Shown piece by piece: positions 16,528-64,000 of a stretch of DNA of 64,000 nucleotides (position 1 is the first letter of the stretch; each line of letters starts with the position of its first letter). The notes under the pieces are model-generated. The model was not told the origin of the DNA, ran no database searches, and worked only from the letters and a program-made list of their open reading frames with translations. The position numbers and the translations under genes were made by a program. The stretch comes from Tetrahymena thermophila SB210 (taxonomy: Eukaryota; Ciliophora; Oligohymenophorea; Hymenostomatida; Tetrahymenidae): the NCBI RefSeq assembly GCF_000189635.1, contig NW_002476013.1, forward strand, positions 558,001-622,000, read 5' to 3'.

Positions 16528-19500
16528 TCAAGAAACTATCATAATAATTAAAATCAGTTGAATGAATTATTTTGATATTCTCAATAAATTAGCTGAAACT
16601 GTTTCAGCTCTAAACCAAGAGGGTATTTTGATAGATTCTCTACTTGTAGAGAAAGGTATGGCTACTATCTAATTGTCTGACATTAAGTCTGGATTGACGA
16701 GTTGACTGTTTTCTCCAATGAAATAAGCTACATAATCAGAATGGTCAAGAAGTCCACTGAACTCAAATTTGTTGGTTATATTTTGTTAGTCTTATGGAGT
16801 TGATGAAGAGAAAACAAATGGAATTTTTTGGTATTGAGATTTTGGAAGTAAGAAGTTAGTTGAATTTAATCCATACTTTATTTATCTTGCAGTTGGCTAG
16901 GTAGCACTTGCTAGCTATACTATTCCATATCCAATACCACTGTATTTCAAAGAAACTATAAAGGATGCACTATCTTCTGTTGAATTTACTATCATTGGAG
17001 TATATTTAAATTCTTAAGGTATTACTATTAATTCATAAGCATGTTCTATGATACTATAAGTAGGATCAACTACATTAGTACTAAATCCAGTACTTAGTTA
17101 TGTTTGAAGCAAACTAAATTCATTTTATAATAGGTTAACTGTTTACAAAGGACGCACTTCATCTGCAGTTTTGTTTTAGAGTAAAATGAATGAGTAAACC
17201 ATTGGAACGGTACCAATTATATCTTTAACTTCAGTTTCTATTACTTCAGTAATTGTAAACTTGGAGGGTTTGCTTGTTATTTAGAAACGGCTAGCAGGAA
17301 GTGTAGTGATTAAACCAAAAGCACTAAATAGAGTACTATCTTAGATAGTTTAATTTACTCTTATAGAGAATGCACATGGATTTTATTTTTTCAAAGTTGT
17401 AAAATTGAAGCTCTAAACAGGACTTGCATTTCCAGATAGATCTTCCACATAGAAATATAATAAATATGAAGTCTATTCTTCAAGACCTGTAAAGTGTAAA
17501 TAGGAGTCATAATAAATAAAATTAGTTGTTACTGGGGCAACATAACTAGAATTGCGCATATATAACTCCATAACATCAGTCTAATTACCATCTGTAGCAC
17601 GAAGAGTACTGTTTTTAAGTTCAGCTGTAGTAGGCGTCAAAGTTCCTTAAAGTGTTAGCATACTATAAACATTAACGCTTTCATCACAAGAAATACGTAA
17701 GTAAATGTAAGTCCTATCCATACTCTCAATATAGTAGTTTCTTACTGTTGGAGGATTATTATCTATATCTAAAATTTCAAAGCTTAAAGTATTGTAAGGC
17801 ATAATATAAATGTTTTAATAGTATGAGTCTAATTAAAACATAATTTGCCCAGAAACTGCCCCATTTTTTGTAGTGTAAGTAAAGGTTTATGAGACTTAGC
17901 CTGGTACAAATACCATTTAAGGGGGATTGAATACAAGTAATGAGTCTTACTGATGGTTCTTTGTATACATAGAAATAGTCAGCACTTTACTTGCTGGTTA
18001 ATTTAAAATAACCTAAATAGGTAAAGAGGTAGCTAACAATGCAGCTCTAGAAACAGTAGTTTAAAGAACAGCTTTTAGAGAATTAGCATAGGGTTTAGCA
18101 ATCAGATTAAATGGTGTATCCTGAATGTCTGAGAATTGATTTGTAGCTTTAATATTTTTAAATAAAAAAATTTAAATTAATTATTTATTCCATTTAAGTG
18201 TTTAAATAAAATAAGTTAATATTTCAATAAATTAATGTATAATCACTTAATTAATTATTAAACTTAAATTAAAATATTTTTTTTTTTTTAATAAATTTTC
18301 ATAGTAAAATAAAATTATTTAATATTTTCAATTAGAATTCAATTACATGTTGCTTCTGATTTAGTCCATACAATGTTTTAAGGTCCAACAACAGCAGAAT
18401 CTAAGGGTTTAATTTTAAATGTTTGTTGTTTTCCTTATGTTGGGTCAAATGATATAACTGGAGGAATAAATTCAAAGTTTTTCAAGTAAGGAATAGCAGT
18501 TACAAAATAACTAACAGCAATTTCAAGTGTTATAGTAATGTCATTTGAAGAAGCACCTTTTGGTAAGTCAGGAATGCTACCAACAATAATTTAGAATCCT
18601 TTTCTATAGAAACTCAAAGTTGTTAAGGTGGAAATCAAACCTGAAGTTTAAGATTTTACTACCTATATTTTATTTTCTAAATAAGTTACATTTTAAATTT
18701 TAATTTAAATACATTGTTAGCAGGGTCATAGATTTATATTACAAAATTATCTGTAGTTCCAGGAATAGATGGATTTTCTATACCATTAATGTAATAGCAA
18801 AGTTAAGCTGTATTTGTATCCGTTTTGGCAGCAGTTTAGCCTGTAATTGAAATTTTCCTTTAATCATTATATGTTGTACATAAAGGAGAAGTTGATGTTT
18901 ATGCATAATTTAATTCATTATTATTGTGCTGAGGGGTAATGGCGCAGGTATAAACACCTTTTTTAAAAAATTAAAATTTATGAAAATAAAATCAACTAGC
19001 TTATTTAACTTACTTTTAAAAGAGTATTGCGATGGGAAGAAAATGAAAACTTAATCAGTAATTGCAATTTAATTTGAGGTTTATACACAGAAAGTGTACT
19101 GTGCTCTTGCAAGTAAAGCGTTGCTTGAAGTAGATAATTGAGTAAGTTAAAGATTATTAGGAGGTGAGGTTGTTTAAACTGGTCCAATATCTGGTTTGTA
19201 TTGAAGAATATTTCCTGCATATGAAACTTAACCTACTATTTTTGTAGATCCTTAGCTTGGGTTCATAATATTGTTTAGTTAGATTTATATTGGATTGTTT
19301 GCATTAAGAACTTAAGTAACGGGTATACTAACAACGCCATTCTATACTGTGCATGTAGTAGCTACTCCATTAAGAAGACAAGCAACCTATTATAAAATAT
19401 AAAAATATTATTTTAATAGTAGAAATAATTAAAGATTGATATTTTTTCAATAAATATTTTTCCTTAAAATTAAATAAATTATAGAATAAAATATGCAAAA

Positions 19501-22500
19501 AAGAGCATTATTGATTATAATTTACCTGTGAATTAGCTGATGAAAGACTTGAAGGATATAAAGAAGTATCAAATTAGAATTAAATTTAGGCTCCCACTGG
19601 AATATTTTAAGAAGGGGTTATTGATATTTAATAATTAGATAAAGAAGCTTCGTTTTTTGGGCTAAAACTAAAGGTCGCTGACATTGTGGCTGGTTATGGA
19701 GAGTAATTAAATAATAAAGAATTATCTGTTGGATCAGTTTAATCAACATTTTTTCCATCGTAAATAGTGGCGATTGAGAATAAATTTGTTTGAAGTGTGG
19801 TCATAGGATTTGGGAAGGCTTTGAAAGTAACAGTCATTGAAGATTTAGCAGGCCACATGAATGTTGGTATAATTGTTAAAGTATAGTAAGAACCAGTTGG
19901 ACCTGACCAGCTTGTTGAGTAAGTTAAAGAACTTGATGTCCACGAACCTAATTTTGTAAAAAAATAATAAATACTAAGTGAATAAGTAATTTTTATTTAG
20001 TCAACTTTAATAAAATTCGTTTTTAAATAAGATAAAATTTGTAAAGGTAGCAAAATTTATTAAAATAATAACCTATTATTTAAGTTGGAGTAGGTAGAGG
20101 AGGAAGAGTGAGAGCTCTTTCAAGGAAATTTGAAGGGAAATTCATCACTATATAACCTCCAATGGGTAAATCAGATGTAGATTGTATGACAAATGTATAG
20201 TCTGTGATAATATTCTAAAAGTAAGAAGTTCCACTCATTGTTAGATATAAAAAGGATGTACTACGTTTAGGGAGATAAGTAATTACTGGGAAATAACCAC
20301 TATTTATTAAATAGCCAAGTGGATGAGTTATAGAAACTTAGAAATCATTAGGAAGAGTTTACTAAGCATAGCTTGGATTGTTACGAGTACCAACAATTTA
20401 AACAGTTAAACTCGTTTATTCTGGAATATCTTTAAGAACTACTATACTAAAACCGTTTGGTGAAAATGTGGAAACACATGAACTTACACTCAGTGAAGTT
20501 GCATCACTGACTTAGCAAGTTTCTTAGGGAGAAGCCTAACCAAAGCTAGGGAAATTAAGAGCAGCACGATTTGGTAAGGTAATAGTTATCAAAGAACCTG
20601 GAGGAACATCATAAGAAGGAGTGAATCCGTATGTGTAAGTTACATAACGCTCATCAGCAAAATATTTAGATAGGTACATACTCAAGGAAACAAAGCTGCC
20701 TACTGCAGGATTACTTATGGGGGTGTAAAGGTAAGTACGAATTATAGTCCTTGAGGCAGCATCATAAGAGTCTATACGTATAGAATATGGTGTAGGGAAT
20801 CTGAATGCAGCGTTTCTAAGCTAATAAATTTAGAGGCTATTGATAACTCCTCCTGAACCACAAGGCGTATTTTAAGGAACTTTAACAAAAATTTAATTAG
20901 TGTCTTCATATATCCAAATTTTTGCTGGTATATTAGCAATAGTAGCTGAAATTTATCCATTATCTACTAAAACAAACTTTACATTAGGTATTTTCAAAAC
21001 TAAAATTGTGTTGGCCAAAAAGCTAAACATTGGATTTCCAGTTGCATCGAAACATCCTTGGTAGTTATTTTGATAATCATACATTTAATCAAAAAAGAAA
21101 GTCCAAGTTGAATAAGCACCAACTTAATTTGGAGTAACAGTAGCCATATTTGATGACCAATAATACCAGTTAATTAATTGTGCAGATTGACCAAGGGTAA
21201 ATTAGCTACTTCCTATGATATCGTTTTGAGATCCGTCACCGTTTTATTAGAAGACTCTTGTATTTATAAAGCCCTAATTATTATAGTAAGTTTGAGGAGG
21301 GCATGGTATATTTAGTAAATGAAGCTCAATGTAAGTATTTGCTGATATTGACTAGAAATTAGACACACGTACTATAACAGGGTTATAAATAGATTATTAA
21401 GTTGAGGGCATGATTGTACAAATAAGCTTTTATCCTGATTGAGGAATTAAACCTGCATAAGCTTTGCAAGCAAATGGATTAATAGGAGAAGCAGCTACTA
21501 GATTTAAATTCCATCCTGGGGAACCATAATATTCTATATAATCACGAGTATTAAACATTATATCAAGATAAGCTATTGGATTTTTTAAGCTTGGATCTGA
21601 AATACCAACAGAAGTATCATATCCAGGAGGGATATCACGTGGAGTATAGAATGAAAGAATTATTCTGGCTTCAATTTAGCTTTACATAACATTAGTAATA
21701 TATGAGTAAGAATTTCCAGCAGGATAAGCAGTCGTGCTTAAATAGCTTGGATTTGTAGTAGCTCCTTAGTTAGAATATTCTTATGACACATTTCCTGAAG
21801 TATCTTTAGATGTAATAAATACTTAGAACTAATCAGCTCCAGCAACGGGAGGCATTTTGACACCATTTTAATTATTTATAGAATCTATTTTGATTTAATT
21901 GTTAATTAAATAATCTTACAAAATAAAATTTTTTACTTTATGTAGTGAAAAACACAAGACCACACTTGTTGAATAAACCTACATTCCTATTAGTATTCAT
22001 AAAGATCTTACGATCAGAAGTAATCTAGCAGTATTATCCATCTATATCAGTATGATAAATATGGTCAACTGAGCAAACATCTGTACCACCATTAGGGATA
22101 TCATAAGCTTTATTTATTTAATAAGAAGATTTAAATAGGTTTATTAATTTAATTAAAGTTAAGACAATCTTTAGAAAAAAGATAAAAAAAAGAAGTAAAA
22201 GTTTTATTTTCTAAAAAAATTTAAAGATATTGTATTTTCATAATTAAGATTTAATAACTAATATAATTTAAATATTTGTTTATTTGCTTTTTTTTATATT
22301 GTAACTTATTAAATGTGGGAAGAAATACATTTTTTAGTAATTAGTTTTATTAAAATTTTAATTACTTAATGGCATCCAAACCTAAATTTAAGTTGACTAG
22401 GTGTCATCTGTTTCAGGGTGATAAGCTCTAGGTATAATACGCATATTCATTTCAGCATATTAGTTAATACCAGCTCTTCTATCTTAAAAACTGAATGTAT

Positions 22501-25500
22501 TTCTATAAACTCTGAATAAATTTGGGAAAGGAACAAATTTGCCAACCCATGTTTTGCCATTTGCATTATAATTGAGGTTATTTATTTGTAATGAGTTAGC
22601 AGAAAAAGTTCTACATACCCAATCTGTTGTCCATCCCGCATTATATGGATTGGTTATCATTAACTCAAGTATAATTAACCCATCTTCAAAATTTTCATTA
22701 TAATTGAAATTGGTTATTTCTATAAACCAATTCGTTGTCTAGTAAGATATTTTACACTGAATATCATTACTAATATTGTTAAAATCTACTAAAACAACCC
22801 CTTTCTTTATTTTACAGCTTCTTATATTCTAGAAAGAATTTGGAGCAAAAAGCCATATAGTTTTCATAGTACTCGTTCTTGTGTATATGTACAAACCTAT
22901 TCTATAGAGAACATCTCTATTTTCAGGATTATCAGCAGCTGTTGTTTCCATTACTACACCACAAGGCATCTATTAAGGAGTTATATATTGATTAGATCTC
23001 ATAATTACTGTCTTGTAACCATCATACACCCAGGCTCTAAGTAAGGATTAAGCATTAAGATAATTATAAGTAAACGGAGGATTCCTACGATTATATGGAT
23101 ACCCTGTACCTTCTACTTCTCTTGCCATATACTAATTAGTAACAGTATCTAAGTTATTAGAAAAGACTAGCCATCTAGATTGTGGTAAGAAAGTACACCC
23201 AACAGGCCCATGAGGAACAGGACAACTAGGGTTATAGTTGGAGCATTGGCCTTAATTTACCCATGCATCGTGCTACTTACAACCTGCATTATTGACCATT
23301 TGATATGGATATCCATATTAAATTACTACAGCGCTTTGATATTTGTTTAGTTAGATACCAAGAGGAATTATATTGACTGTTACATTTCTCAAGTCGAAAT
23401 TAACTCTTGTGTCATAGTGTTAAATTTAGAATTAACTAGAGCCCATGATAATAGGAGGTGTCGCATCATTCCATTATGGTACTATATAGTATCTCCATTA
23501 ACTATTTATTGCTATTTTGTAAAAAATATTTAAATTTTGAAGTTTTTTGTTAATGTTAAAATTTTTTATTTATTGAAATAGTATATTTAATCTAAAAATA
23601 GAATAAATATTGCCAAATTTAATCATATTTTATAGAGGTGATTTTATATAAAATAAAAATATATTTTAAATAAATTTACGATAAAATGTTCCATCTGGTT
23701 GTAACTGTTATATAATAATATTCATGTGAGCAGCAGTTTAATATCTGAAAGGTAGAGCATCATTATAAGTCTTTTTTCCGATTTAAGGATTGTTAAATAC
23801 AGTTCCATCTACAATTTTGTTAGGATTTTTTATTCTTCCTAATGCAATATTAAATGCCTTTCCAGCATTTATTGCAGGATGACCTTCCATTATTATGTAT
23901 GCTGGAGTAGTAGGAAGTTAACCTGAAGCAGGAATAATAGAGCACGACAATAAACTATAATTTAAAAATTTAATTAATGAAATTATTTATAATTAAATAT
24001 TTGTTACTTTTATCCTGCAGGTATAAAAGGTGTACCAAAAATTCCATTGTACATTCCACCACAACTAGCAGCTCCAGCTGTGGTTAGTTTTTAGCCTGTA
24101 GGATCTTCATCCCAACTTGGGAATATACCATTATGTGTCTAAAATTAAAATACAATTCTTGTCCTAGAAGTGGATGTTAATAGGCCAGATGCTATAGGAT
24201 TATTAACTGTAGCTAAAGTTACATTTATATAGGTATACAAGTATTATTCTGCAAAAGTTTATGCATCAATGTTATTGTTGTAACTATATGTATTAGCTTC
24301 GTGTGAGTAGGAATAAACTCTAAATACATTTGGATCAAATGGGCAAGGAGGAATATTTGCTTATATCCAAGCAACTAAAATAAAAAAATAAATGATAAAA
24401 ATTTAGATAAAAAATATCATATAATTAATTCTATTAAAAAGTAAATAAATAAAAATTTAATTACCTTCTTGATAATAATCATTTCCTTAATTTTCGTTGC
24501 TAGTTGATAATCTTGTCCATTAAATAGCAGAAGGACCATTCACTTGAATACCCCATGTATATACTAAGTTATAAAATAGTTTATAGAAAAATTATGTAAA
24601 TATTTTCAATATTACCATTGTTTGTTCTAACTGTAAGATAAAGCAAATACTCAGAGCCACTATTAACACTCGTTTCTTCTGGAATGAAAGCCCATATAAC
24701 ACCATTAGGACGGAGGTCGCATCTGAAAGTCTTAACAAAAATTAATTGTGCATTACCAGTATCAGCAAAATAACAAATAAGTTCCTCTCCAGCTAAAAGT
24801 TATTGAATTTAAGCAAAAAAGTTAATTTCAATATAATCAGAAGGGTAGCTATAATTCTTTCTAAATTAAAACTTGAGTACTATAGGTCCACGGTTACCAC
24901 CACAAACTGGTATAGGTTCCTGTACTCTATCTAATATATTTAACTAAAGCAATACAATAGATAATACATTAAAATTAGTATATGAGTTATCTTAATCAAT
25001 GATGTGGCTATAATTAGGATCATATCCTGGAACTTAAGGTCTGTTATTATAGCCAGTTAAATCCCAAAAAGTTGTTAAACTAAAATTCACTCTATTACCT
25101 GCATTTCCACTATTTTAAATTTGTAATACAAATTTAATAACACCTCCAACAACAGGATCATACTATGTATCCCAATCATAAAGATATATTCTTCTTTATG
25201 ATGAAACAACAATACATTAAGCATTTGATAAACCACTAAGGATAACACAATAGTTACTTAAGAATTACCAATCTGAATCAGCAGCTGCATTCAATGTTCC
25301 CCAATAAATAGAAATATATCCTCCTATGGGTATTTTATTGTAAGGCTAGTAAGTAAACTTTTTTATTTAAAGAAATTAAAATTAATAAACTATTTTATTA
25401 ACTAGCTAAATAATTAAAAAGTTAGTTTTAAATTAATAAAAAGATAAGTTTTTTAGCAAATTCTCAAATTAAAAAAAATTAACTAATTTAGACAAATTAA

Positions 25501-28500
25501 AAAAAAAGGATTTACTGTGACAGTATTTGGCTAGGATATGTATTGTACGGTAGTAGTAAACTTTTTGAAAAAAAGAGGATGAGGATTTGCAAAAGGTATA
25601 TTATTGTATGGTTAAACTAATCTTTCCTCTCCTTGTGAAAATGCATAAAGTTAATAATAAACTCCTCCAGTAATTTGATAAGGCATGTTTTTAAAATTAT
25701 AAGTAATGGCAGTTTTTGAATTTGAAGGCATATTAGTTGTAAATTCTATTTCAAGCCAGTTGATTAAGGGATATATTCTCACTAAATTTATAAATACTTT
25801 TTAATAATAAATTTAAAACAAACTTAAATTTACCTGTTCCAACATCAGCTGTTGTAGTAAGAGCTATAGAAGGATTTGTTGGTTATTCTATAATATTTGT
25901 TGCAGTTGTAGTTGTGATAACAATTCTATCTCTAGATAGCAGCGCTTGAGTTTGGGGTATATTGTAATTCCATGATACTTACATTGGATCACCAACACGA
26001 TGTCCTGCAGGGAAGCTTAGGCCTATTGAGCCTGCATTATTTATATTGTTTGGATTAGTGTAAAAAACAAAATCCATAAGCATTTCTAAGTATTCGTTTA
26101 CTACTTTATTTGTGCTGTCAAATTATATTGCTTTAAGGCCTATTCTTGCATAACTATTGTATTTTTAAAATAAAATTAATCAATCAAAAATTTTGGTTTA
26201 TGTATTTAAAAGTATACTTGTTGATATTGGGAGGTAAATTTATTTTGGGGAAAGAGAATATAAATGTTGTGCCAGGATTAGTAGTTTATTGAGGGTGAAT
26301 AGATATAGAAGCAGGTGCAGACTGTGCAGTACCACCATATTGAATGTAGCAGAGGAATTTCATATTACTATTACAATTAACACAAATACAGTCTATTTGT
26401 TACCCATCTTTAATAAAACGAGACTCTAAATTGTATGGGAAAAGTTATTAGTTAATTTCATTGTAAGTTTCAAGATATAAAATAAATTAGCCCCAGTTAG
26501 CCGTAGTAGGAAGAGCATCTGGGAAAGACATTGAGTTAGGTAATTAGAATCTAACTCTAATTATAGTAGGATTATTAATAGTTGTAGATATTGAGCAAGC
26601 AAAGGCGTAATTATTTCTATTAAAAGCTTAATTAACAAAAATCCAATTCTTCTTGAATATGTAAGATTAAGAAGCACCAGTATATTGATTTATTGGTACA
26701 TTTTAGAAGTTTGAGGGGGTAGTTTAATACTGAGTCCAAGTTGGTATCAATTAAAAATCTCGAATAGCATTTTGTGTTCCTTACCATCTTTAATCTCTCC
26801 ATGATCTAATATCGACATTCAATATTGCTAATAAAAAATGGAATTAATATTTTTTAATGTAAAAAAATTTTAAATTAACAAATAACCACCATAAATGACA
26901 AATATTTAAATAGAATGTTTAAATTTTTATTATTTTTTAGAATAAAAAAAAATTAATTACTTCCTGTAGCAAATGTGGTTTGAATAGGAGCAAAAATATA
27001 GATAATATTATTATTAATATAACAATTATAAGCTGCAAGCTCATTTATCCAACATTAAAGCTCTTTTGTTTAAGATTATAATTTAATGACCGTACCTATA
27101 TAGCTTGTTGCAATCTATAAACTATCTACACCCATATTTAAAGCATTTGTAAGTTTAGCTGTAAATTTGAGAGGGCAAGTATCTAGAGATTAGCAGAAAT
27201 ATACATTTGTATGGGGTTAGTACATTCTTGCAATTAAGATAAGCTAATTAATTATAGTAACTCCATTTACATTCTACTGGCCTTGTAGAGTAGCTAATGT
27301 GTTATCTGTGTAGAATTTCATTTAGAAGTTATTTGTCAAACCAACAGCTGTTGGATTGTTTACTACCATTTTAATAATATAGCTTGTTCCTGGTTTAAGA
27401 GCAGTAGAGAGTTAAATTACAAAACTATTAGATGAAGTATTACTGGAACACGTGCTTGAAATTGTAGCTAAACTATTTTTATCCTGAATAGTACATGTTA
27501 AACTGGCTGCTATGGTGTACTAAGCAGAAGGGAATATAACTTAGATAGTATTACCAGAAACTTAATTCTACATAAGATCATAAGTTAAATAATACCTTAC
27601 ATTAGTTTAACCAGCATTATATGAATTAGCAATGATTTACTAATTTTACACAAAGTTACCTCCTGCACTTAAAGCTTAATTCACGTTTCCTGTAAACACT
27701 TTTCTTACTTTCCTATTTCTTATTTCTGTAACTATATAACTACTATAAGTATATGTACCTGAATTATAGTTTTTAAAAAATTTTAATTAACTTATTCATG
27801 TTATCAAATAATAAAAATAAAAAATTAAAGTAATTTAAATAAGAAAACATTCCTCCCTTTATTAAATTTTTTATTAAGTTTTTTAACTTGTGATTTATTC
27901 CTTTAAAAAAGGAGGGGATTATGGAAAATCTTATTAATTCATTTTTTAATTATTTTTTTATATTTTAAAGTAAAACTAAAAATAGTTAAATATGATTTTA
28001 CCTATAATTGGAGGTGTGTAAATATTATTAATTGCCAAATTATAGTTGCTTGGCAAAGAAGCTGAAGTGATACAGAAATAGATCTACGAGACTGTTAAAA
28101 AATTTGGATTGGAATTAGAAGAGCTCATAGTTGAAGAATACTAAAGAGGATCATAACTAAATCTTAGAATTGAGCTTCCATCTATAGATAGGTTGTTTGT
28201 AAGTGATAGGCCATTGATATTAATTGTAACTAAAGTAGATGCAGTAGCTGGAGAGAATGAAGGGGTAGGTAGAGTAGCAGTGGCAGGACTATAAGAAAGA
28301 GTGTAAACTGCATATCTAAAGACTTGCATACTTGATAAGGCAGTTCCTGAACCAGCTTTTACTCTTATTCTAGTAGAAACATTAACAGTGCTAGGATTAA
28401 TTAAATTTTATATATTAATATTGATATTTCCACTAGCTGAATAAAGAATTCTAATTTTTGAGGAATTTTGTATAGTAGATTAACCATAAAAGAGGCGATA

Positions 28501-31500
28501 TTTGACATTAGTTCCTAAATTTCCTGCATTATCATTACAAGTAAAGGATTTTCCATTTAATAGTCCTGATCCTAAATCTTATGCAAACAAGCTTACTTAA
28601 GATGCTCCTTAGTCTTAATTAATAGGGAATTCTATATCAATATATCCAAAGCTGCCACCAGAGTTAAATTAAACATTGTAAAGTGTATTTTTACTGACTG
28701 ATCCATCATAATTTTAAAAGTATGCAGAGGGTGACACTTAAGAATATATTTCCATAATTATGGAGTCTGTGTGGGTGATTGTTGGAGCTGTTGTATCTTA
28801 TACGGCATGATAGTTAGTTTTATCAATAGTAAAATAGTATACCTAAGGACTTGAAGGCAAAGTCCACATGTATCTCTAAGAAGTAGTATCTCCTAAACGA
28901 ATTAATTCAATATCGTAGACAGTATTAGCACTAAATGCGTAACCTTAAATAACAAGATAAGTAGAAGTGAGTTATTGGAAGAAACACTTATATGTACGGT
29001 ATCTATTGTATGTTTAGTAGGGCATCTTAACATTGCATTTTAGTCTTATTTTATTACTATACATACTAGCAATATCTATGCTACTAGGGAAAGTAATCAT
29101 CAGTTAATCTGTAGTAGCTGATATAGCAGTTTTTAATTTTATTCTAAATGTTAGTAAAACATTATTTCCACCAACTGAAACACTACTATAGTATTATAAA
29201 GATTGTAGAGCAAGCCAGTTTTAAGCAATCATAAAAGTCCTTGCAGTTATCAAAGTTGAACTTCCTACGGTATCAACAACATCAAAGTATTAGCTTAAAG
29301 TATTGATATTTGCTATTTAACTTGGCATATTATTACTGAAGAACAATTTTATTTTAATAGAGCCAGCTGTGAAAGTTCCTATGTCTAATTAATAATTATG
29401 ATAAAAAATATATTTCTATTGATTTAAAAAAATTTACTTTTGATGTAAATGTATTGCGTTGATAATACAAACGTAGGCTGTAATGATATATTTGTAGAGT
29501 CTATGATCTAACCATTAAATGTAGTCGAAGTAATTGAAGATCCAAAATCTAATTGTATTTACCCATTAGTGAATGTGGTTTATGTTGTAAACTATATAAG
29601 TAATGTTTAGCTTTCTATAATTTATAAGCTATTGACTGTAATTGATCCAGGGCTTGAAGAAACACTACTTGTTTAAGTAACAGTTGATGTTTCAATTTTA
29701 AAACCATTTTGCATAGTATCTATTTAAGTTATTTATGGAACTTTGGTTTAATCCTAGAATGCAAAGTAAAGATTATAAGAACCAGCGCTCATTAAACTAA
29801 AGCCTATTTTATAAAATTATTAATTTTTATTGAAATAAAAAATATCATAAAAAATGCTATTGTATTCTATGTTTAATTACCTGAAATTGTTATTATATTT
29901 CCACTTAGATTAGCTGTATAAGAACCTGTAAAAAGGTTACCCGTTGTTGTATAAAATTAGAATGCAGTTCCTGGTGACGAATCTAAAGTTATATAAATTT
30001 AACCAGTTGCAGGGACTTGTAAATTTGTTGTAAATTAAAGCTAAATTTAATTGTTGGTAATTTTTGTAGATGAAACACTTCCAAGAGTAGATACAGTCAT
30101 TGATGTTTAAGGATAAAAAGTAATATATGAAAATGCTTTTTTAGTAGAGACTTAATAACCAATTATTTAATAAGTCACTGTAGTAGCAGTAGTGAAGTAA
30201 ACTGAAGGTAATAAAATACTATTCATGTTCAAATTAATCTAACTTGTTGCTGTTTATTAAACATCACATATAATAGCTAATGCAACTTAATCAAAAGTTG
30301 TACAAGAATTAGCATTAGATCCATCGTAATCAATTGTTGCAGACAAGGTGTTTACATTAGCTAAAGTATTAGAAGGGAAGTTATCAAAAAATAGAATAAT
30401 TTTAGTCCCTGCGACATATAAAGGCAAGTCTGATGATGTAATTTTAAATACAAGATTGCCTAAGGCTTATAAGGTAGTTATTGTATTAGCTACTGAAGAA
30501 GCAGAAGAATTAATAGTGTCAGCAGATAATGATACAGATATTGGACTAGTATATTTTATATATTTATTTACTCTATCAACAGCTGAAAAATTTATACTAA
30601 TAGAAGCACTACTAGCATACTCTTTAATGTTATATATTGTTAAAATTCTTGGTGTGGATGTTGTTGCATCATCCATGCCACTTATGATTATTGTAGGTGC
30701 AGAAATTGTTATTCCAAAATAGGTACCAGATGTAACTAATTAGCAGTAAACATCATCTGTCCCTGCAGAACATGGTAAACTCTATCCTATTCTAGGACTT
30801 ACAGGAGCAGTTAAAGGTGAATTTAATACAGCGAAATACACAGTGTTTACACCAATTAAATTTTATTAGGGTTTAAAAGTTATTTAAATTACTTAAGGAA
30901 CTACCTTTGAAGTGTAGTAAGGAAGAGCTAATGAGATAGAGGCAAACGTAGAAGTAGAAAGTGTAGGTGTAAATTAATATAAATAATTATAAACACCTCC
31001 AACAACAACATAAACATTCATCACTGGATTGCTTTAAGGAGTTGGTGGTGAAACTACATTATTTAATTGGAGTGCTTATATTCCTGAGTTTATAGTATTA
31101 GCTAAGCGCACAATCATGATATTTCCTATTCCTATGTACTCAGAAGCAGCGTATGATGCAAATGAAGCAGATGTAAGATCAAATCCAATGGGTAATTTAA
31201 CAACAATCCTATCATTATTTCCACTAAACATATTTGAACTTCCTAAATTTACAGTTGTAAAAGTAAGAGTCCCAGCACTAAACGTTACACCTGTATTTGC
31301 TGGATTTGTAGTTACTTGTGGGGCAGCAGAAGGAGCATATACAGATGGATTGTATGGAGTTAGTATATTCCTAAATATAAAGGCTTCAAGCATTGTGCCA
31401 TCTTAAGCAGTTGTATAAACCTCAATAGAAATTTATCCTGTAGAGGCTGTTTGAGCTGGAAGTGTGATATCATTTATCAAAAGTGAGTATGCTGAATTTA

Positions 31501-34500
31501 AACCAGAGCTTAAGCGCTATGAAACCATAACTTTTCTGAAATTAGAGTTGATAGTGCATTAGTAGCTAGTTGTTCCACTTGGTTTACCAGCACAGTTTAC
31601 AGTTGATCCAGGAACTAAGCCTGTTTTACCTAAATAGTCATCAAATAGAGTGGTTACACCATCTTCTGCAAGTTTAGGGAAAGCAACTACAATATATCCG
31701 TTATTTGGAACTTAAACTGTAGTTTATACAGTAACAATTAAATCTATTACAGAACCAGAATTTTCATAAGTTGTTTCTAAAGTTGCCAAAGTATTGAAAT
31801 TAGCAGTAGGGTAAATAGTGAAATATACATCTGTCAAAGTTCCTAAATTATTTGAATTAGTTACTTAAAATTTTGTTTCGCCCACTCCAGTAAACTGCAA
31901 TCCTTGTTGAGCTCCATTTTCTATTGTAACATAAACTAAGTATCTTTTTTTAATATTTTAAAAGATTAATTTAATATTTTTAAAAATTCATTTCTTTCTT
32001 TAAAATCATAATTAACCTTAAAGAAAATATTATTTTAAATAAAATTTTGTTTTGATAGATTTAAAAAAATATGAATAAAAATGTTACAGAGTATTAGCTG
32101 TTAACGGGCTATCTACAGGACCATAAATTCTTATTGTAAGAGGTAAAGATTAAGTAACTTTGCAGAGAGCTGACTCTATATTTATATTATTGTTGTTAAA
32201 ACCACAAACTAGATATGTTTATCCTTATGCCTTGACATCGCTATTTGGGAAAGAGAGTTAAATGTAGTCAGTTTCTGATAATGCCATTCCCGGTTAAAGA
32301 TAGAAATTAAATTCACCATAGCTGTTTTATTTAATTGAGTTAATGTACTCAGCCTAGTGTTTTGCAAAAACTGTAGAATCATATGCAGATATAGCTGGTC
32401 CAGTAGCACTAAATGTAGTAAGCTTCATAGTGCGACCTGCATCTTAATAAATATTGACTGTAAAAGTTGGTGTAGCAGTAGCAGTAGAAGGATTAGCTGC
32501 CCATGCTTCTATTTATATTATTTAGCCTACAGGTACATTACCAAATCCACTAATTGAAACTGCTTGAGCAACTTAGCTATTTACACATGTAATATAGTCT
32601 TAATATGCAGGGAAAGGATAGGCTAAAGTGTCTGAACAATAATTTTAAGTTGTATACCCAGAAGGGAATATAAAATCAATTACACCTTAATTAGCCTATA
32701 ATGCTATTGGCAACTTTAGTTAAAATATGTATCTAGTCATTTAATTCTAAGGAACCTATATTTAAAAAAAGAGTGAATTAATTTATAAATATTTGAAATT
32801 TTTTGATTGTTATGAAATAATATAATATGATTTTCATTATTTTTATTATTAAAAAGTAAATTTTTTTTATTGAAATTCTCAAAATTTAAAAAAAATTCAA
32901 AATATTTTTTAATTTATTTTTTGTATGTGTTAAATTTAAATTATTTATGGTTTATAAAATAATATTCAATATTAATTTATTTTAATCATTAATTTTTAAA
33001 TTATCAAAATAAAGAATTCTAAAACTAATTTGTTAAAAATTAATTTACTTTCAAAATATTTGTATAGTCTGGAGCTGTAATTGTAAAATCACCTGCTGAT
33101 GGTGAAATTGGAGTTACTTAATTTAAGGCTGTAAAGTATCTCTTATCAACAACTACTCTATTTTTTACTGTGTAACCTATTAATTAGACTGTCGTACTTG
33201 AAATTTTTACATTCTATAAACCTGAAACAGTTAAACTTATAGTTGCTCCAACACTATAATTAGAGTCATATTTCCAAATTACCCAATTCCATCCTTATAG
33301 TTATCTACAGCTTCCAGGACTACATGAAACTGTAAGAGGCTATTAATTAAAAGCGTAGAAAGGGAATTCTATAATAAAGTAATCATAATTTTCTGGATTA
33401 GATTGAGCAGCAAATACTTTTTATTAAATTGTAAACTGATAATTAATGTTAAATTCTTTTGGACCAGCACCTGTACCACCCATAACAACTGATCCATAAG
33501 CAGGTTGTGAAGCAACGTTAGTAGCTGCAGGACTATTTTTTAAATATAAATTTTTTAATTTTTATAAATAAATTTTTATAAAACTTACGTATTAACATAT
33601 TTAAATGTAAAGTCATAGTTGATATCTGAAGATTATATTGTACTACCAATAAAACCTTCTAAAATTAAATAAACATCCCTACCATCAACAAGGACATTTG
33701 GATTTTTAATTTGATCTATGGATATTAAATATGAAGTTCCTGCATTAAATGTTATGCCAGATATGGAAATTATAGCAGGTGTACCTAAACCTTTATCACC
33801 AAATTGTAGTGTACAAGTCAATGCTGCCTGTACAGCACCATTTTAATATTAACAGTTTATAGGAGTTCCTCCAGCTTATGATGTGAAGCCAGTTCCTAGA
33901 TCTTCATCAAATAAATCATTGTTGAATTAGTCTACAACTGGAACATATAATTTGAAATTATCGCAAGGAATGCTAGGCTAAACATAAATATCGATTACTG
34001 TTTTTTCATTTGGGTTGTTTATTATTGTTGTTGGTGCAAAGTAAGTAAAAGTTGGTTTAAGAGGTACATAAATTTTTTTAGTTGCAACATATGGTTGACT
34101 GGAGCCTGGGAAAGTTATAGTAAATGAATAAAAACCAGAAGTTGAAGGCATAACGATACCATTATTACCATTATATTGATCTATTGTACTGACTCCTATA
34201 ACCAAATAACTGTTTGCTGCTATTGGTTGACCCGCTGAACCTCCTTGGGCTACATTGTAAAGATCTATATAGGTTTACAATGGAGTTTCAATTGTCAGTA
34301 AATTCTATTTTATAATATTAAATAAATATCATTTAACTAATTATTAAGTTTTCAAATAAAATAAATTATTACTCCACCGCTTAATGTACAGGTGTGGGCA
34401 GGGTACTTTTGATTATAGTAGACTGTTAAATCCCAATAACAAAATAGCTACGAATCAGTTTGCTGAGTAAAGCCAGTAGGCATTTAAATTGTAACAGTTT

Positions 34501-37500
34501 ATCCAGCGTTAAGATTAACAGGAACTTATATCTTAAATTCTAAAACACCAAAATCTTAAGTATATAATTTAGTACGTGTTAAAAGGAGCTATTCCCAATA
34601 AGATATTGTAGGAGGAGCACTTAAAGCTGGAGAATTAGTGTTACCTACTGCAACTAACAAATTAAGAGGGCTCTCATTCTTGTACCATTACTTAATTGTC
34701 CATTATGAGGGGTTAGCAACAGCTGGATTTTAAACTCTAAAGTTAACCATTAATGTAGTACCATTTCTTTTTTAAGAAGGAAGGGCACCAAGATCTAATT
34801 TAAAAGGACCAAAATCATGAACCAAAAGATAATCATTAACAGTTGGACTAGGATCGATGACTAAGTTGCATTAAAACTGATATCCATAAGGATCAAAGTC
34901 AGATCCCTAAGTTATAGCATTTCTGCAAATATTTTCTTTTTATTTATTCTTAAATTCTATTGGAATAATTATTTAAATACAACCACCAGCTGGTATATCA
35001 CTAACTACAATATATGTTATAGTGTACTAAGCTAATTAACCTTATATTGTATCATCTGCAGTAACTTTCATATTTGCAGCTGGAATGGTCTTTGGGGTGA
35101 GTGTCTGAGTAAAATCTGGAATTTAAAATTTAGCTACTAATCTTGACCTCCAATATGAATATCCATAAATATGTTAAGCTGCAGGAATAAGCGCAACGTA
35201 TGGAGGTGTTTTCAATTTTATTGAACCTAAAAATTATGATGATATTATGGTTACTTAACTAAAATTTAAATAAATAATTACCTTTTAATATACTATTTTT
35301 GTTAACTGTACCTTTTGCTGGTGTTGAAAAAGCTAGTAGCACTTACTAGCTAGAAGGATAAGTATAGCAACTAGAATATGTTCCATAATCACTAGGATTT
35401 GGAGTGCAAGTAGCAATATCAGGTAAAATCCACATGCTTGGCAATTAAAAAAGAACATGATCTCCTCCTTACATATCAAAACCACCTGAATAAAAGCAAA
35501 GATTTAAATAATCCAATGTATCAATAGTTGTAGCTGTTTAAAATTTAGGTGTACAACCTACGTTACCAGTTAAATCTTAATTTATAGGTTATGAATGGAA
35601 TAAGTAAGATTAGATCACATTTGTCATATTAACGAGTTGATAGTAATTCTGATATATGGGAACTGTAGTACCAGTTGCTAAATTATTTTTTTAAAATTAA
35701 ATTGTTAATAATTTAATAAGCAGAAATTTTAATATATACATAAAGATGTAGTTTAAACTAGCACGTCCACTTAAAGTAAATCCTTTGGAATAGAAGGATT
35801 AAAAATGTTAGGAATGTGAATTTCATAACTACCAGCAGGTATAGTGTCAAATTATCTAATAATAATCTAAGCAGGATTGGGAGACGTTCCTAAATACAAT
35901 TAACAACTAAGAGTATCATATCCCGCTAAAACTGGTATATTCATGCCTTCGCAAGGGACATTTGATCTTTGTGGCAACCCAGTACCTAATTTATTTATTA
36001 AAAATTTTCATATGATATAAAAATATTAAGTTGAGGTGTTACCTAAATCTGAAGCGAATCCATTAGGGAAAGCTGTGCTAATGTATGTTGCAAATTCAAG
36101 AATAATGACAGTTTAAGATACTGTTGGGACTAAACTTGGTGGAATAGGATTTACGAGAGAGAATACAAAAGCAACAACAGTTCTACCACAAATAGTTAAA
36201 CCTCCTCCAAAACATTTGTTATCAGATGAATCAGTCACTAATTTGTTTATACTCCATACCCAAAAGTTTACAAAGGAAGGAGCCATTACATTGTATGCCT
36301 TTTATGTAGAAACTGTGTTAGAACCATCTGTAATTGAAGCCGACAAAATATAAGTTCCTGCTTAGCTCATAGCAAATCCATCTCTAGTAGAAGTGCTATC
36401 ATCATTGCCTCTAAAACCCATTTATAGATTATACTAAATATTTGCCTAAATTCCATTAATAGTACTAGTAAATGGAATAGTCATCGTTACAACTTGCTAG
36501 TTAATAGTACAATTTTCAGCAATTTCGCCATTTAGTGTACAATATAAATATCCTGTCATAGTTTAGAAATTAAAGTTATATATTGTGTTGTCAACTTAAG
36601 TTGGTTGATAAATGCCTCCTCCAAAATTAATAGTTAGTGTACTAGTTCCAGAATTAAATGATATTGGAGATGTAAATTACATGTAAAAATATCCTCTTTC
36701 ACCTTATCTTGCAGGTCTGTCTGTTATATAAAAGCTTTACCATAAAGCTTCCTAGGGAAATATGCTTGGTCCAGCTACTGGTAATGCAGGTAAAATATAG
36801 TTAGCACTGGTAAAATTGATAACATTCTAATATTTATATCAAAATTCATTTCATGAATTAAAAAAATAATAATAAAACTTACTCCACTAGAATCATTCGA
36901 AGTTATAGTGTAACTTCCAGGGTTCCAACTAGTAGGTTGTTTAACAGGGTTAGTTGCCCTAAATATAACAGATATAGCTGTTTACTAAGCAACATTTTAA
37001 AACTACGATAATTAGATTACATAGTTTCCTGAGTTGTTTATTACTTAGCAACTAATACTACTTTGAATGGTGAGTTAAGATATACCCACTAAACCTTATT
37101 AGACATTACAGTTTGAATTAATAGCTAAATAAGGAGGAGTTCCAGTAGGAATATTTATATTAAATTATCCACCTTGAGGAACAGGTCTGCAATTTGTGAA
37201 ATCAAGTCTAATATTTTAATTTTTCAAAAATATATAAATTAATTAGGATAAATAAAATAATTAATTTACTTGTAAACAACCTCAGCCTACCATTCCATAT
37301 CTGTTGCTACAGTACGAGTAGGTGCGGAAGGAGAGTTATTTGGTAATATGGATAAATTTGTAAACAAAATACCACCATCCATATATCCTGGTGACATTGC
37401 CCATGAAACATAACTAGTTTTAATTCCTTTTTACCAATATTTACCTGATAACTAGACTCCTTAAACTATATTTTGGTTATTATTAGGGCCAAAATCATGG

Positions 37501-42950: not shown

Positions 42951-43819
42951 AAAAATATTAACACCTTTTGGACTTGAATAATTAAAAATATATTTAAAAA
43001 CTTATTTATTCCATTATACTTGTTTTGAATATTAATTCGAGATTATTTAAGCTTATTTATTTATATATTTTTGTTTGTTTATTTATTTAAGTTTAATAAT
43101 GTAATTATAGATTATTACTTTGATAATTAAACTAAATTCAAAAATTAATCTAAATAGTTTGAATTTTAGAATTCAGTCACCTTATAGAAAGAAATTTCAA
43201 AAATTTCTTCAAACCAAATTGCTTTATTCAAATGATATTTTGTGTATCAATAGATTTTAATATAATCTGATGGTTATAAATGCTTGATCTCAGAATATTT
43301 TTATTGAAAAAATTTTAATTTCTAAATTAAACAAACAAAATATTTGATTAAACACTAAAACTTATTTATTACTTTTAATTTAAATATAGGTTTTCTTTTT
43401 GATTATTAAGAAAAATGTTATTTACAAAAAAAAAATTATATTTAAAGAAAAAACAATAAATGTAATTACAAAAAATATGCTTGTCTTAAATTACTTTTCT
43501 AAAATTTGGATCTTTGAATTTAATTGTACTGGTGGTTGAAAAATAAATTAATTAAATTATATCAGTAAAAAAATTCAGGTAAAAATGAGAAATGAGTTTA
43601 TAAATTAATTTAATTTAAACCTGAAAAAAATTTATTTAGAATATAACATGAAGATAATTTAAAAAAGATTTGAGATAATATCTTTAAATTATTTTTATAA
43701 ATTATTGGCTTAAAAAAAAATAAGAATATTTATCAAAAATTAATAAGAAATTAGTTAATATTTATAAAAGATACATTTTTAATATTTATTTCTTTAATTT
43801 TACATATTTTAGATGTAAA
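42951..43819. other. AT-rich spacer, 3' flank of giant gene 2
   Basis: Extremely AT-rich, with TTTATTTATTTA-type runs near 43050-43090. No gene is recognised. Confidence 0.5.
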
Positions 43820-46800
43820 TCATATTACCAAAAAGAATATGATCGAAATAATTGCTGTAAGTACCTGTTTTGGAGTTAACAATTATGAATAAATGTAATT
43901 TGCTCTAAACCATTTTGGTATGGATATTTCCTCTCTTTTAGTTTTAAATTCTATTTTAATAATTTTAGAAGAATCCATTAGATCTGGATTTACTAATTAA
44001 TTATTTTCACCAACAAAGTAAGCTGTGTATTACGAGTTATCCATTAATTCAGTAAATTAAAATATATGAGTGATATTTTATTATTCTTCAGGAATGTTTT
44101 CTTTGAATTCGAATTTATATGAGTAAAAGTATGAATTTTAAAGTTTATAATTTGTTGAATTTAAACCATATTTAATTTATTGAGACAAGGGTGGTTTTAC
44201 ACTAGTCAATTACACAATAGCATATCCTATTCCTTTATATTTCAAAGATACCATGAATTAAGCAGAATCTTAGGTAATATTTAGAATTACAGGAGTATAT
44301 TTAAATTCTTATGGGATTACAATCATTTCATATGTATGCTTAATAATACTGAAATTCGGATCAAGAATTTACTTTTTACTACCTGAGCTTAATTCGTTTT
44401 ACAATAAATCAAATTAATTATCCAACATAAATATTTTTTATATCGGGCGAACTTCATTAGAGGTGCTATTTTATAATAAAATAAATTTGTACTCTATCGA
44501 AACATTTTCTATTAGATCAAGAATTTGTTTTTCAATAACACCATCAATCTTAAATTTAGTTGGTCTTTATTAAATCTAAAATCTTTCTGGAGGAAGTGAA
44601 GTGATCAGACCAAAGGCATTTAGGAGTTTGTCATCAGCTAAAATATCATTTACTCTCAGAGTGAATGATACTGGATTATGTTTCTTCAAAGTAGTAAATT
44701 AGAATTAAAGAACTGGACTTTAATTATTTGAGAGATCTTCAACAAAGAAATATAGAACATATTCTGTTTATTCTTGTAAACCAGTAAAGTGAAGATATGA
44801 ATCATAGTAAATATAATTTTTTGCTGCTGGAGCAATAAAACTAGTATTTTGCATGTAAAATTCCATCACATTTGTCTTTCTCTAATTATATTCTCTTAAA
44901 GTAGTATTTTTCAGTTCTGAGGAAGTCGGGTAGTCTGTACCAAGCAAACTGAGCATACTATAAACTGTAACACTCTCATCGCTTGATATACGTAAATACA
45001 TATAAGTTCTATCCATACTTTCAATATAATAATTTATAACTTAAGGAGTAGCTTTATCAATGTCTAAAATTTCAATACTAATAGTATCATAAGGCATAAC
45101 ATAAATATTTCTATAATACTTATCTAATTGAAGTTTTAGGTAACCAGATACTGACTTTTCTTTTGTAGTATAGCGAAATTTTTAGGATATTTCTCCTGGT
45201 TAGAATACTATTATAGGTGGATCAAAATCTATTTGATCATCTTACAAATGACCCTAAGTGAAAACACTAATACTTAGCACTTAACTGGCAGGCTAATTCA
45301 ACTTAATTTCTATAGGAAGAGAAGTTGAAAGCAAAGCAGTTCTGGAAACAGTTGTTTAAAGAATAGCTTTTAGAGAATTGGGATAGGGCTTATCAATTAA
45401 GTTGAATTAACTATCAGGGATGTCAGAGAATTTAATTTCAGCTTATTAAAAAAATAATATAAATTATTCAGTTTTTATTTAAAGTTTAAAAAATTTTTTC
45501 TTTTAAATAAAAAAACATTTAATTTTAAAATGAAAAGAAAAAGTAATTTTCAATATTTTTCAAATATTTTTAGAATAATTATAATTTACTTGTGTCCTCT
45601 TATTTAGTCCAAATAATTAATTTCTATCCTGCTACTGCTTAATTTAAAGGCTTTATTTTAAAATATTGCCTTTAACCTTTTGTGGGATCAAATAACACTA
45701 CAGGAGGTATGAATTCAAAGTTTTTTAAGAATGGTATTGCAGTAATTTTATAGCTCACTGAAATTTCGAGCTCAATTGATATGTCATTTGATACTACACC
45801 CTTTGGAAGATCTGGAATAGATCCTACAATAATTTAAAATCCTTTTCTGACAAACGAAAGTGTAGTCTATGTTGAAGTTAATCCAGAAGTTTCGCTTTTT
45901 ATCACCTATTTTATGATGAACGAGAATTAATTAAACTTATTAATAAAAATTTTAAAATTACTTATTTAGTTTGGTCATAAATTTATATCACAAAGTTATC
46001 AGTTTATCCAGGTATCGAAGGGTTTTCAATACCATCTACTCTGTAACATAATCTTGCTAAGTTAGAAGAAGTTTTTGCTGTTGTTTATCCAGTAATGGCA
46101 ATTCTTTTTTAGCTATTTTATGTAGCACAATTTGGTGAAGTTGAAGTTAAAGCATAGTTTAGCTCTTTTGTGTTATGCTCAGCAGTAATAGAGCAAATAT
46201 AAGTACCTATTTTTGATTAAAAAAATGTATTTATATAAAAAAATTATAAAAAATGAAATACTTTTGAATGGGAATTAGTTAGGGAAGTAAATGAAAACTG
46301 CATCATTTAGTGAGATTTAATCATATGTCTCAATACAAAATGTGTATTAAGCTCTAGCCTATAAAGCGTTTGAAGATGTTTCTAATCTAACAAGCTATAA
46401 ATTATTAGGAGTTTTTTGGGATTCAACAGGTCCAATGTCTGATTTGTATTGTATCACACTATCACCTGTAACAATTTAACCAACTATATTTGTTTTTCCT
46501 TATGGCGGGTTCATGATATTATTGAGTTTAATATCTAAAATAGTATTTGCTGAGTAAGATTGCTTGAGTGGAATGCTTATAACTCCATTCTATACAGTGC
46601 AAGTTGTGTCAATCCCATTAATGCTACAAGAAACCTTTAAAAATTATTTAAAATGTGTTAATTAATGTATTTTTTCTAGTTTAATCTACCTAAGAGCTTG
46701 CTGAAGATAAATTAGAAGGATATAAATTTGTATCAAATTTAAATTATAAAGTAGAATCATTAGGTATATTTTTAGAAGGTGTTATTTTCATTTAATAAGT

Positions 46801-61800: not shown

Positions 61801-64000
61801 ACTAAATTATTCTTTAAATTAAAACAAAAAATTCTGATTAAATTTGTATAAAATTATATTTTTTTACTGTGTCAATTTTGCATGTTTTAGATGGAAGTTA
61901 ATTATTGTAGTAAACTGAAAGGTCGAAATAACAATAGAGTTGTGAATCTGTTTATTTTTTAAAACTAGGTGGCATTTAAACAGTAATAAAAGAGCCAGCA
62001 GGAAGGCTTGAGGGAGTTGTTATTAAAAATTCCAAAGGACCTATGTCTTCAGTATATAATTTATTTCTAGTTTACAATAACTTTTCCCACAACTAAATTT
62101 TAACAGGTGGCTATAAAGATGGAGAGTCAGTTTTTCCTGTAGCTACAAGATAGTTCAAAGGAACTTCTTTTAAGTACCATTGCTTAATTTCCCACTAACT
62201 TGGCTTTGCAACCATAGGGTTTTGAACTCTAAAGTTAACTACTAATGTTGTTCCATTTCTTTTCTAGAATCCATTTATGGGGTCAGTGAAATCAAGTTTA
62301 AAAGGTCCAAAAGAATGAACTAAAAGATAATTGGGTGAACCTGCAATATAATCACATTTAAATTAATAACCATAAGGATCAAAATCGGATGATTATAAAA
62401 TAGCATTTCTACAAATGGTTTCTTTATTTAAACCTTAGAAATCTGATGGTATGATGATTTATATACATCCTCCATTTGGAATATCTCTCAAAACATCGTA
62501 ACGTATCGTATACTCAGATATTTCACCTTAAACTGTTGATGAAGCAGTTACCAACATTTGTGGATTTGGAATAGTTAGAGGAGTTAATGTTTAAACAAAA
62601 TTGCCAAGTTGAAACCAAGAAATTATACGTGATCTCCAATAGGTATATCCTTAAATTTGTTAAGGTGTTGGATTTAATGCAGCATAAGGAGGAGTATTCA
62701 TATTAATATATCCTATTATAATAAAAAAGTAAATATTTTACTATAATCATGATATTAAATCATATTTCTTATATAAATGAGTTTATTAAGTTTATTAGAT
62801 ATGAACTTAAACTTTTATTTTTTATAAAATTTAGAATAAAAACCTGATATCATAGTGCCTGGATTTACTGGTCCATTGATGTGTATTAGAATTTATTTAG
62901 CTGAGTCATAACTATCGCATTTTACAGCAGAAGGAAAGCTAAATAATGAGCAGAGATCTATCCTTGGCATAATCCAAGTTTAAGGGAATTAATACAAAAT
63001 GTGGTCTCCTGGTTAAAGTTTATGAGGCCCTGTTTAGAAACAAACATAGAGCTTACTTGGTGTGTCAATTATAGTTTGTGAGAAGGTAGGAGTGCATGAT
63101 GAAGTAAGGTCAACAAAAACAGGCTTTTAGTGAAATGGTACTGAAAGAATTTAGTTTGTCATGTTAACTAAAATATAGCTGTTTTCATAAATGGGTCTAG
63201 TTATACCTATTTGATGATTTTTAAGTTAACTACTATTTGTATCAAATTAAAATAAAAATACCATTAGAAAAAAATGTGGTTTCAATTCTCATATTGACTT
63301 AAAGAACTTCTTTAACAGCTGAAGGATTAAAGACGTTTGGGATATGAATTTCATAGTCATCAGTAAATTTTGGGTCTAAATTGCTTATTATTTCATCAAA
63401 ATTTGTTATTATTATTTAAGCTGGGTTTGGTTTTGTTCCTAAATACAACTAGCAGCTTAACTTATCAAAACCAGATAAAATACTTATCTTTTTGCCTTCA
63501 CAAGGAACTTCGGTTCTTTGAGGTAATCCCTTTCCTTTTTTAATAAAGTAATAAAATTATAAATAAATGAGAATTAAATTTTTTAATTTTCTATTTTTTT
63601 TCATATTTAAAATTAATTTTTAAGGTTTTTAGAATGAATAAAACAGTTTTTTTCAATAAATAAAATTTATTTCATTAAAAATTTTAAGTTTAGTTTAAAT
63701 TAAATTTACCTAGAGCAGAATCAAAACCATTCTAAAAAATAGTATCAATCTGAGTAGAGAATTCCAAAATTATTTTTGTGCTTTGGCTACCAGCAATGTA
63801 TGATTTTGGAATACCAAAGTGGTTAAAGTAGAAGATAAAAACGCTCATTCCGCATATGTTAGTACCACCATTAAAGCATCTTACATCTGTAATGTCAGTA
63901 TTCATCTTGTTTACACTATAAACCCAAAAATTACGGAAAGATGGAGGCAAATTTCTGTATGCTTTTTAAGCACTAACCTATTTTGAACCATCAGATATGT
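43820..64000 (-). CDS. Giant modular extracellular protein 2, 5' end outside window (about 5,650 codons present)
   Basis: Tandem paralogue of the gene at 16528-41124, same strand. TGA at 43822-43820. By alignment, base 64000 corresponds to about 36300 in gene 1, so roughly the first 5 kb, including any signal peptide, is missing. Conserved landmarks include WFRA and a hydrophobic C-terminus (VLTAIISIIFFLVI), the block YYIESMDRTYMYLRIS, and FYQMKAGTYKFSIYFEEQP opposite FSLMSAGSYNLYFAFQDQT in gene 1. The same repeated Cys/FP/NP modules occur. The tail again lacks cytoplasmic residues, consistent with a GPI signal. About 25 introns interrupt it at positions matching gene 1. Protein divergence is substantial, so the duplication is not recent, and both copies look intact. 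Family unrecognised; surface role inferred. Confidence 0.87.
43820..64000 (-). other. Intron map of giant gene 2 (25 introns in window)
   Basis: Introns placed by eye, 5' to 3': 63535-63709, 63207-63261, 62713-62843, 61812-61867, 61043-61101, 60331-60540, 59377-59677, 56958-57331, 56529-56588, 54950-55142, 54031-54148, 53351-53435, 52754-53030, 52324-52487, 51520-51574, 51378-51426, 50962-51019, 50529-50697, 49343-49391, 48982-49171, 47112-47187, 46635-46689, 46207-46261, 45906-45961, 45442-45589. In order they pair one-to-one with introns 9-33 of giant gene 1. GT..AG on the minus strand. Lengths differ freely between pairs (for example 374 against 77, and 210 against 293). Individual boundaries may be off by a few bases. 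Confidence 0.7.
57107..57231. repeat. Inverted repeat within an enlarged intron of giant gene 2
   Basis: The intron 56958-57331 is 374 bases, against 77 for its counterpart in gene 1. Inside it, the arm at about 57107-57139 (core TTATGGGGTCTAATTTATG) is an imperfect inverted copy of about 57199-57231 (reverse complement core TAGGGGAGTTAATATGTG). A perfect inner pair TATGTGTG/CACACATA is nested within it. The result would be a long hairpin, reminiscent of a small non-autonomous element or a structured intronic RNA. No target-site duplication was identified. Confidence 0.5.

Follow-up and report, generated by a model that had tools for sequence, protein, structure and literature searches.

The closest described systems lie in bacteria and in ciliates. 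The giant adhesin of Mobiluncus mulieris is described as a chain of 7,651 residues with 51 immunoglobulin-like (Ig-like) domains (PMC10619420), and Apilactobacillus kunkeei is reported to carry five consecutive genes, Giant1-5, encoding surface proteins of 3,000-8,000 residues (PMC12863079). Among ciliates, Oxytricha possesses Jotin, described as a 64,614-bp open reading frame with four short predicted introns and with titin-like genes as its best BLAST hits (PMC3558436), and the longest gene model of Tetrahymena thermophila is given as 47,333 bp (PMC3341644). Here we describe two adjacent genes, A and B, in a 64,000-nucleotide stretch of T. thermophila SB210 (contig NW_002476013.1, positions 558,001 to 622,000; hereafter the window), each predicted to encode a protein of about 770 kDa. 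We favor, with moderate confidence, the reading that both are giant rod-like cell-surface proteins built of Ig-like modules and GPI (glycosylphosphatidylinositol)-anchored, serving as coat fibers and/or adhesins. An initial annotation of the window had called proteins of this size at a ciliate surface exceptional; given Jotin and the 47,333-bp gene model, that part of its description should be tempered.

The M. mulieris adhesin resembles A and B in size, in its long Ig-like array and in having cross-links within domains, although the cross-links described there are ester, isopeptide, disulfide and thioester bonds, whereas A and B have paired cysteines whose bonding is putative. It differs in being bacterial, while A and B have strongly diverged repeats and a C-terminus that looks like a GPI signal. 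Giant1-5, as reported, are likened to A and B by gene arrangement, both being adjacent genes for giant surface proteins, but are bacterial and number five instead of two. Jotin, as described, is likewise a giant ciliate protein, but is about three times longer and has four short predicted introns. Literature searches, short of a full survey, turned up no recognizable description of genes A and B.

Gene structure and divergence of the pair

Genes were called with a small gene finder of our own, which was trained on the window, used the ciliate code, required GT-AG introns and forbade in-frame TGA; all gene models reported here, including those of relatives, are thus computed predictions from DNA. 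Under translation table 6 (TGA the sole stop, TAA and TAG read as glutamine) long open frames run along the minus strand, while the standard stops leave neither strand of the window with a frame as long as 150 codons. Gene A and the window part of gene B were each called as one chain. The features of the pair are as follows (window coordinates).

16528-41124, minus strand: gene A in full, with 34 exons and about 6,958 residues (770 kDa)
41064-41124, minus strand: gene A exon 1, 61 nt, signal-peptide-like hydrophobic leader
39089-41124, minus strand: N-terminal part of gene A, up to about residue 471, common to four relatives by blastp
21544-39088, minus strand: middle region of gene A, some 5,000 residues with diverged beta repeats; relatives match short stretches at E 1e-3 to 3e-5
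16528-21543, minus strand: C-terminal part of gene A, some 1,480 residues, common to relatives by blastp
20236-20706, minus strand: modeled repeat of gene A (AlphaFold, mean pLDDT 71.9, pTM 0.69)
17362-17760, minus strand: fibronectin type III (FN3)-like domain of gene A, weak evidence from a five-member profile
16528-16590, minus strand: hydrophobic C-terminus and stop of gene A, GPI-signal-like by hydropathy
41125-43819, no strand: intergenic gap of 2.7 kb, AT-rich, from the stop of B to the start of A
43820-64000, minus strand: gene B, in-window part, its start lying 5,685 bases outside the window at 69685 (window scale)
44657-45055, minus strand: FN3-like domain of gene B, weak evidence
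43820-43882, minus strand: hydrophobic C-terminus and stop of gene B, GPI-signal-like by hydropathy

The predicted A protein grew from 6,927 to 6,958 residues when the donor of intron 10 was shifted to match B. The whole model of B runs from 69685 to 43820 in 35 exons and encodes 6,806 residues (766.5 kDa). Its first exon (69625-69685, window scale, minus strand) is again 61 nt long, encodes a hydrophobic leader and ends in the same intron phase as exon 1 of A; both leader exons were located by comparing the two upstream regions. All modeled introns are GT-AG, as the finder demands (33/33 in A, 34/34 in B), with a GC content of 12.5-14%, and splice sites are uncertain at four introns of A. Phase-1 introns predominate, making up 22 of the 33 in A and 21 of the 34 in B; such an excess is typical of extracellular modular proteins. 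These models and the alignment of the two proteins bear out what had been read from the window alone: the head-to-tail pair with its coordinates and size, the 34 exons, the leader and the hydrophobic tail of A, and a second gene running off the edge.

Aligned end to end, A and B are 54.6% identical (3,663 of 6,713 aligned residues), and 29 of the 33 introns of A match an intron of B in column (within 1) and in phase, compared with a mean of 0.15 and a maximum of 3 in 2,000 trials of random placement. The non-matching introns sit at uncertain splice sites, several of which have alternatives that fit the other protein better, and B has one intron that is not in A. Because dN is 0.41, dS is near saturation (about 1.8, giving a dN/dS of about 0.23) and the agreement at four-fold sites (558/1,369, 41%) compares with 35% expected by chance at third positions, the duplication is judged to be old and the selection purifying. 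We saw no conversion tract in the pair, the highest DNA identity over 100 codons being 73%. In the spliced sequences, TGA counts per frame are 1, 84 and 177 for A and 1, 103 and 272 for B, the lone in-frame TGA being the stop; the finder imposes this absence, and its weight rests on the counts in the other frames and on the A/B alignment. The earlier view of two probably functional, strongly diverged paralogues is accordingly upheld.

These observations also bear on the possibility that the gene finder fused smaller adjacent genes. The models are computed from DNA alone, and the same finder did over-join genes in two places, upstream of B and on the downstream side of a relative on contig C162, and once joined A to B. 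However, 6,700 residues that align co-linearly without a break, 29 of 33 introns in common, no in-frame stop, and a single leader and a single tail per gene make such an error very improbable.

Repeats, cysteines and probable fold of the interior

Cysteine makes up 1.3-1.4% of A and B and is the residue most conserved between them, with 84 of 93 aligned A cysteines kept (90%, compared with 54.6% for all residues). The conserved cysteines are clustered: gaps of 5-22 residues number 34 where 15.5 would be expected (at most 27 in 2,000 trials), and clusters of at least two conserved cysteines number 32 where the expectation is 17.7. A hydrophobic anchor ending in proline recurs 37 times in each protein, while 200 shuffles gave 16.7 in A and 19.3 in B, with maxima of 28 and 30. 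An iterated repeat search spread beyond itself from three of ten starting segments, while controls (50 shuffled, 10 reversed) produced no extra match. A hidden Markov model (HMM) built from the best segment, and trained on the very copies counted, found eight copies in A and nine in B at E<=0.1; at this limit 20 shuffles and the reversed sequence gave no match, two reversed matches appearing at E<=1. Copies are spaced by 146-148 residues near the C-terminus, and two near the N-terminus by 131. The number of modules is estimated at about 47 by length and about 32 by cysteine clusters. Profile-profile comparison of 220-column A/B slices, run without a control, gave more than 50% probability for 14 of 1,953 pairs and more than 90% for none.

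One repeat of gene A, modeled from an alignment of internal repeats, is all-beta and appears to be a beta-sandwich of a common, Ig-like class. Its structural neighbors include integrin alphaIIb, SdrE, GspB, Bap, BcpA and FimA, as well as ClfA, ClfB, Bbp, FnBPA and Als9-2, among many non-adhesins. The comparison of A and B with MSCRAMMs and giant bacterial Ig adhesins is by the fold of this one repeat only. AlphaFold gave no usable fold for a 603-residue exon from a two-sequence alignment (pLDDT 38). Near the C-terminus, a weak likeness to FN3 is placed in A, B and three relatives (C91, C162 and C328, introduced below). The five-member profile had fibronectin as its best PDB match, with a whole-sequence E of 0.003 and a best single stretch of i-E 4.2 over 29 positions; the Pfam fn3 model itself stayed below cut-off, reaching at best E 0.056 in one of the five members, as did fn3_6, whose match in an exon of C162 had E 0.022. 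By eye, the segment preceding this domain may resemble Calx-beta.

Library searches gave the proteins no name. Pfam returned nothing above cut-off in 32 of the 34 exons of A (all but 1 and 24) and in eight of the 35 exons of B, the surface-antigen domain included, and likewise nothing for C-terminal pieces and single repeats; NCBIfam returned nothing above cut-off in five exons of A and three of B. Within this scope the family goes unnamed in Pfam, and no exon was placed in a well-described family. PDB searches by sequence gave no match for A exon 16 or for the C-terminal profile, and one chance match for exon 29. No relative turned up when query A2 was run against bacterial and archaeal genomes or query A1 against viral contigs, one scan in each case.

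Scattered weak Pfam matches (best E 0.0089) were set aside, among them the Ig-like models MOV-10 (0.019) and Pom152 (0.041), and DUF7035, which appeared in the C-terminus of B (0.034 to 0.1) and was unseen in A. DUF2808 matched two exons of A below cut-off (0.0089 and 0.043) and was not used as evidence. The exons concerned are exon 19 (26962-27756, minus strand) and exon 31 (19015-19386, minus strand), and the matches are perhaps a remote hint to the class of the repeats.

Relatives in the same genome

We searched a 101-Mb assembly of 445 contigs. The telomere-type repeat CCCCAA gives thousands of overlapping matches in it, those listed lying on contig C4, where it begins and again near base 465,600; together with the genome size this points to a macronuclear genome. 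Eight of the 34 exons of A served as queries, with an E limit of 0.001 in one search and 10 in the rest. Seven of them returned A and B alone; only exon 3 (residues 58-301) reached other loci, on contigs C91, C162 and C31, after which an exon of C162 and one of C91 found C328. Models built on the fetched regions, named here by contig, have 2,273 (C91), about 2,142 (C162), 4,564 (C31) and 2,060 (C328) residues. The C162 model was cut by hand ahead of a join with the next gene, which by eye consists of a histone deacetylase-like and then a kinase-like part (L028 3854-6507).

Pairwise blastp, with E-values referring to a two-sequence database and no match to reversed A and B at E<=1e-3, aligned the relatives to both ends of the giants. 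Over the N-terminal part of A (residues 1-471), E-values were 1e-9 for C31, 4e-13 for C328, 7e-14 for C162 and 8e-15 for C91. Toward the C-terminus, residues 696-2139 of C162 matched 5478-6947 of A (2e-32), and the C-terminal part matched A in C328 (869-1969, 5e-30), C91 (1216-2138, 3e-26) and C31 (4041-4532, 2e-6). Against B, residues 1-441 of C162 matched 1-468 and residues 691-2114 matched 5346-6767, with an E of 2e-34 for the C-terminal part. About 1,865 of the 2,142 residues of C162 thus have counterparts at one or other end of the giants, and the roughly 5,000 residues between them would be either an addition in the giants or a loss from the short relatives.

Judged by these alignments, A, B, C31, C91, C162 and C328 are one family sharing both ends. 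The earlier reading could assign no known family, and this stands insofar as Pfam names none in the exons scanned, but a family exists, with at least four more genes sharing both ends. Six genes are a lower bound and the search an insensitive one, since a C-terminal exon of A missed C91, C162 and C328, later matched by blastp at E<=3e-26. Two further weak matches went unconfirmed: C368 (E 0.019) yielded a 432-residue model that blastp did not match to any family member at E<=0.001; the models of C209 (E 0.089) were too short to compare.

The ends of the relatives bear on orientation. Leader-like starts were seen in C31, C162 and C328; the modeled start of C91 is probably wrong, because its hydrophobic stretch sits at residue 52. 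The C-terminus of C91 holds an EGF_2 domain (23.1 bits against a Pfam cut-off of 22.1) and, beyond it, first a hydrophobic helix and then a charged tail, an arrangement that resembles a type I membrane protein.

L025 5674-6066: EGF-like domain, membrane helix and charged tail of C91

C162, in an in-frame reading, apparently ends hydrophobic like A and B. The ends of C91 and C162, with the position of the FN3-like domain near the C-terminus, suggest the order leader, outside-facing modules, membrane-proximal FN3-like stalk and anchor.

Probable anchoring and possible roles at the surface

By hydropathy, the highest 19-residue windows of both proteins are the leader and the tail (1.89 and 1.79 in A, 2.25 and 2.03 in B). 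No other window exceeds 1.6 in B, and three interior places in A reach 1.61-1.68, near the value of its tail. In neither protein does a cytoplasmic tail come after a membrane helix. The hydrophobicity of the tail is kept in both although its letters diverge. Given the leader, the cysteines, the hydrophobic tail and the relative C91, both are very probably surface or extracellular proteins, which supports the original suggestion of putative surface proteins. The C-terminal anchor is likely GPI, the C-terminus of A and B being hydrophobic and, by hydropathy, free of a cytoplasmic tail.

The lack of a helix with a cytoplasmic tail would also suit a secreted matrix or secretory-granule protein, released for instance from mucocysts, in which the C-terminus is no anchor. 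Against this stand the retention of a hydrophobic end in A, B and seemingly C162 despite diverged tail letters, and the membrane helix of C91 near the matching place. We regard secretion as unlikely.

Identity between A and B is uneven along the chain, at 59-67% in the first 800 columns and up to 70% toward the C-terminus, with a minimum of 33% in columns 3,000-3,400. Retention likewise differs by residue, being high (68-90%) for Cys, Trp, Pro and Gly and low (30-45%) for Ser, Gln, Thr and Ala. The latter pattern is what would be expected if the fold alone mattered, as in a non-adhesive coat of passive spacer fibers that, like immobilization (surface) antigens, have no specific partner; high-mass GPI-anchored antigens are described as covering the surface of Paramecium (PMC12113882). 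These antigens share with A and B a cysteine periodicity and, as predicted for the giants, a place at the ciliate surface; a GPI anchor is shown there and likely here. They differ in mass, reported as 250-300 kDa in Paramecium (PMC12113882) against about 770 kDa for A and B, and A and B lack a Pfam surface-antigen match in the exons searched, 32 of 34 in A and eight of 35 in B. Moreover, the better conservation of the N-terminal end and its presence in relatives suggest a specific tip. We consider a passive coat somewhat improbable. N-glycosylation sequons are depleted in both proteins, with 42 against 109 expected in A and 39 against 83 in B (about 39-47% of expectation).

Under the favored reading of an anchored surface rod, the leader would direct the chain into the secretory pathway, and small beta-sandwich modules of Ig-like type, many with a cysteine pair, would line up in a long array as an extended ectodomain. 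The hydrophobic C-terminus, adjoining the FN3-like stalk, would be swapped for a lipid (GPI) anchor. With the C-terminus anchored and the array extended, the far N-terminal end would be held well off the membrane, perhaps by 150-200 nm for about 45 modules, a module being about 4 nm long. In this arrangement contact would be made by the conserved N-terminal modules at the tip, with the middle modules acting as a spacer. We infer anchor type, extended shape and contact role in this scheme, in which the proteins, be they coat fiber, adhesin or both, would act as the multi-Ig giant adhesins do in bacteria; that adhesion and not mere coating is the role is a guess.

A review of 2022 calls the membrane adhesion proteins of Tetrahymena unknown (PMC8777248), and A, B and their relatives are testable candidates for them, in a kind of organism open to genetic manipulation. 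The same review gives some support to a part in cell pairing as mating-recognition proteins, as it describes gamete adhesion in a green alga by a protein with seven Ig-like domains (PMC8777248). Like A and B as predicted here, the Tetrahymena proteins MTA, MTB and MRC1-6 are large ciliate surface membrane proteins; they differ in having 92-212 kDa, internal membrane helices and other domains, and none of the recognition-complex members identified there is giant (PMC10901506). By mass and hydropathy, A and B do not resemble this complex, and a mating role appears quite improbable.

A broader and rather doubtful proposal is that the family comprises modular rods of about 2,000 to 7,000 residues whose length is tuned by modules inserted between tip and base. 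Members with EGF-like domain and helix would signal, lipid-anchored ones would give reach, and the giants would be adhesion filaments of Tetrahymena, for pairing, food capture or both. The family suggests that a giant eukaryotic surface protein can be related to one of 2,000 residues by a changed number of middle modules.

Beyond the pair, the window holds a fatty acid desaturase gene adjoining it (11454-12611, minus strand; PF00487, E 4e-22) and a 118-residue frame (15032-15388, plus strand) whose N-terminus is hydrophobic and for which Pfam gave nothing at E 0.001. In a further open frame (9621-10952, plus strand), a CCCH zinc finger (PF18345, E 2e-5, short of its cut-off) is fused to a histidine phosphatase domain (PF00300, E 2e-9).

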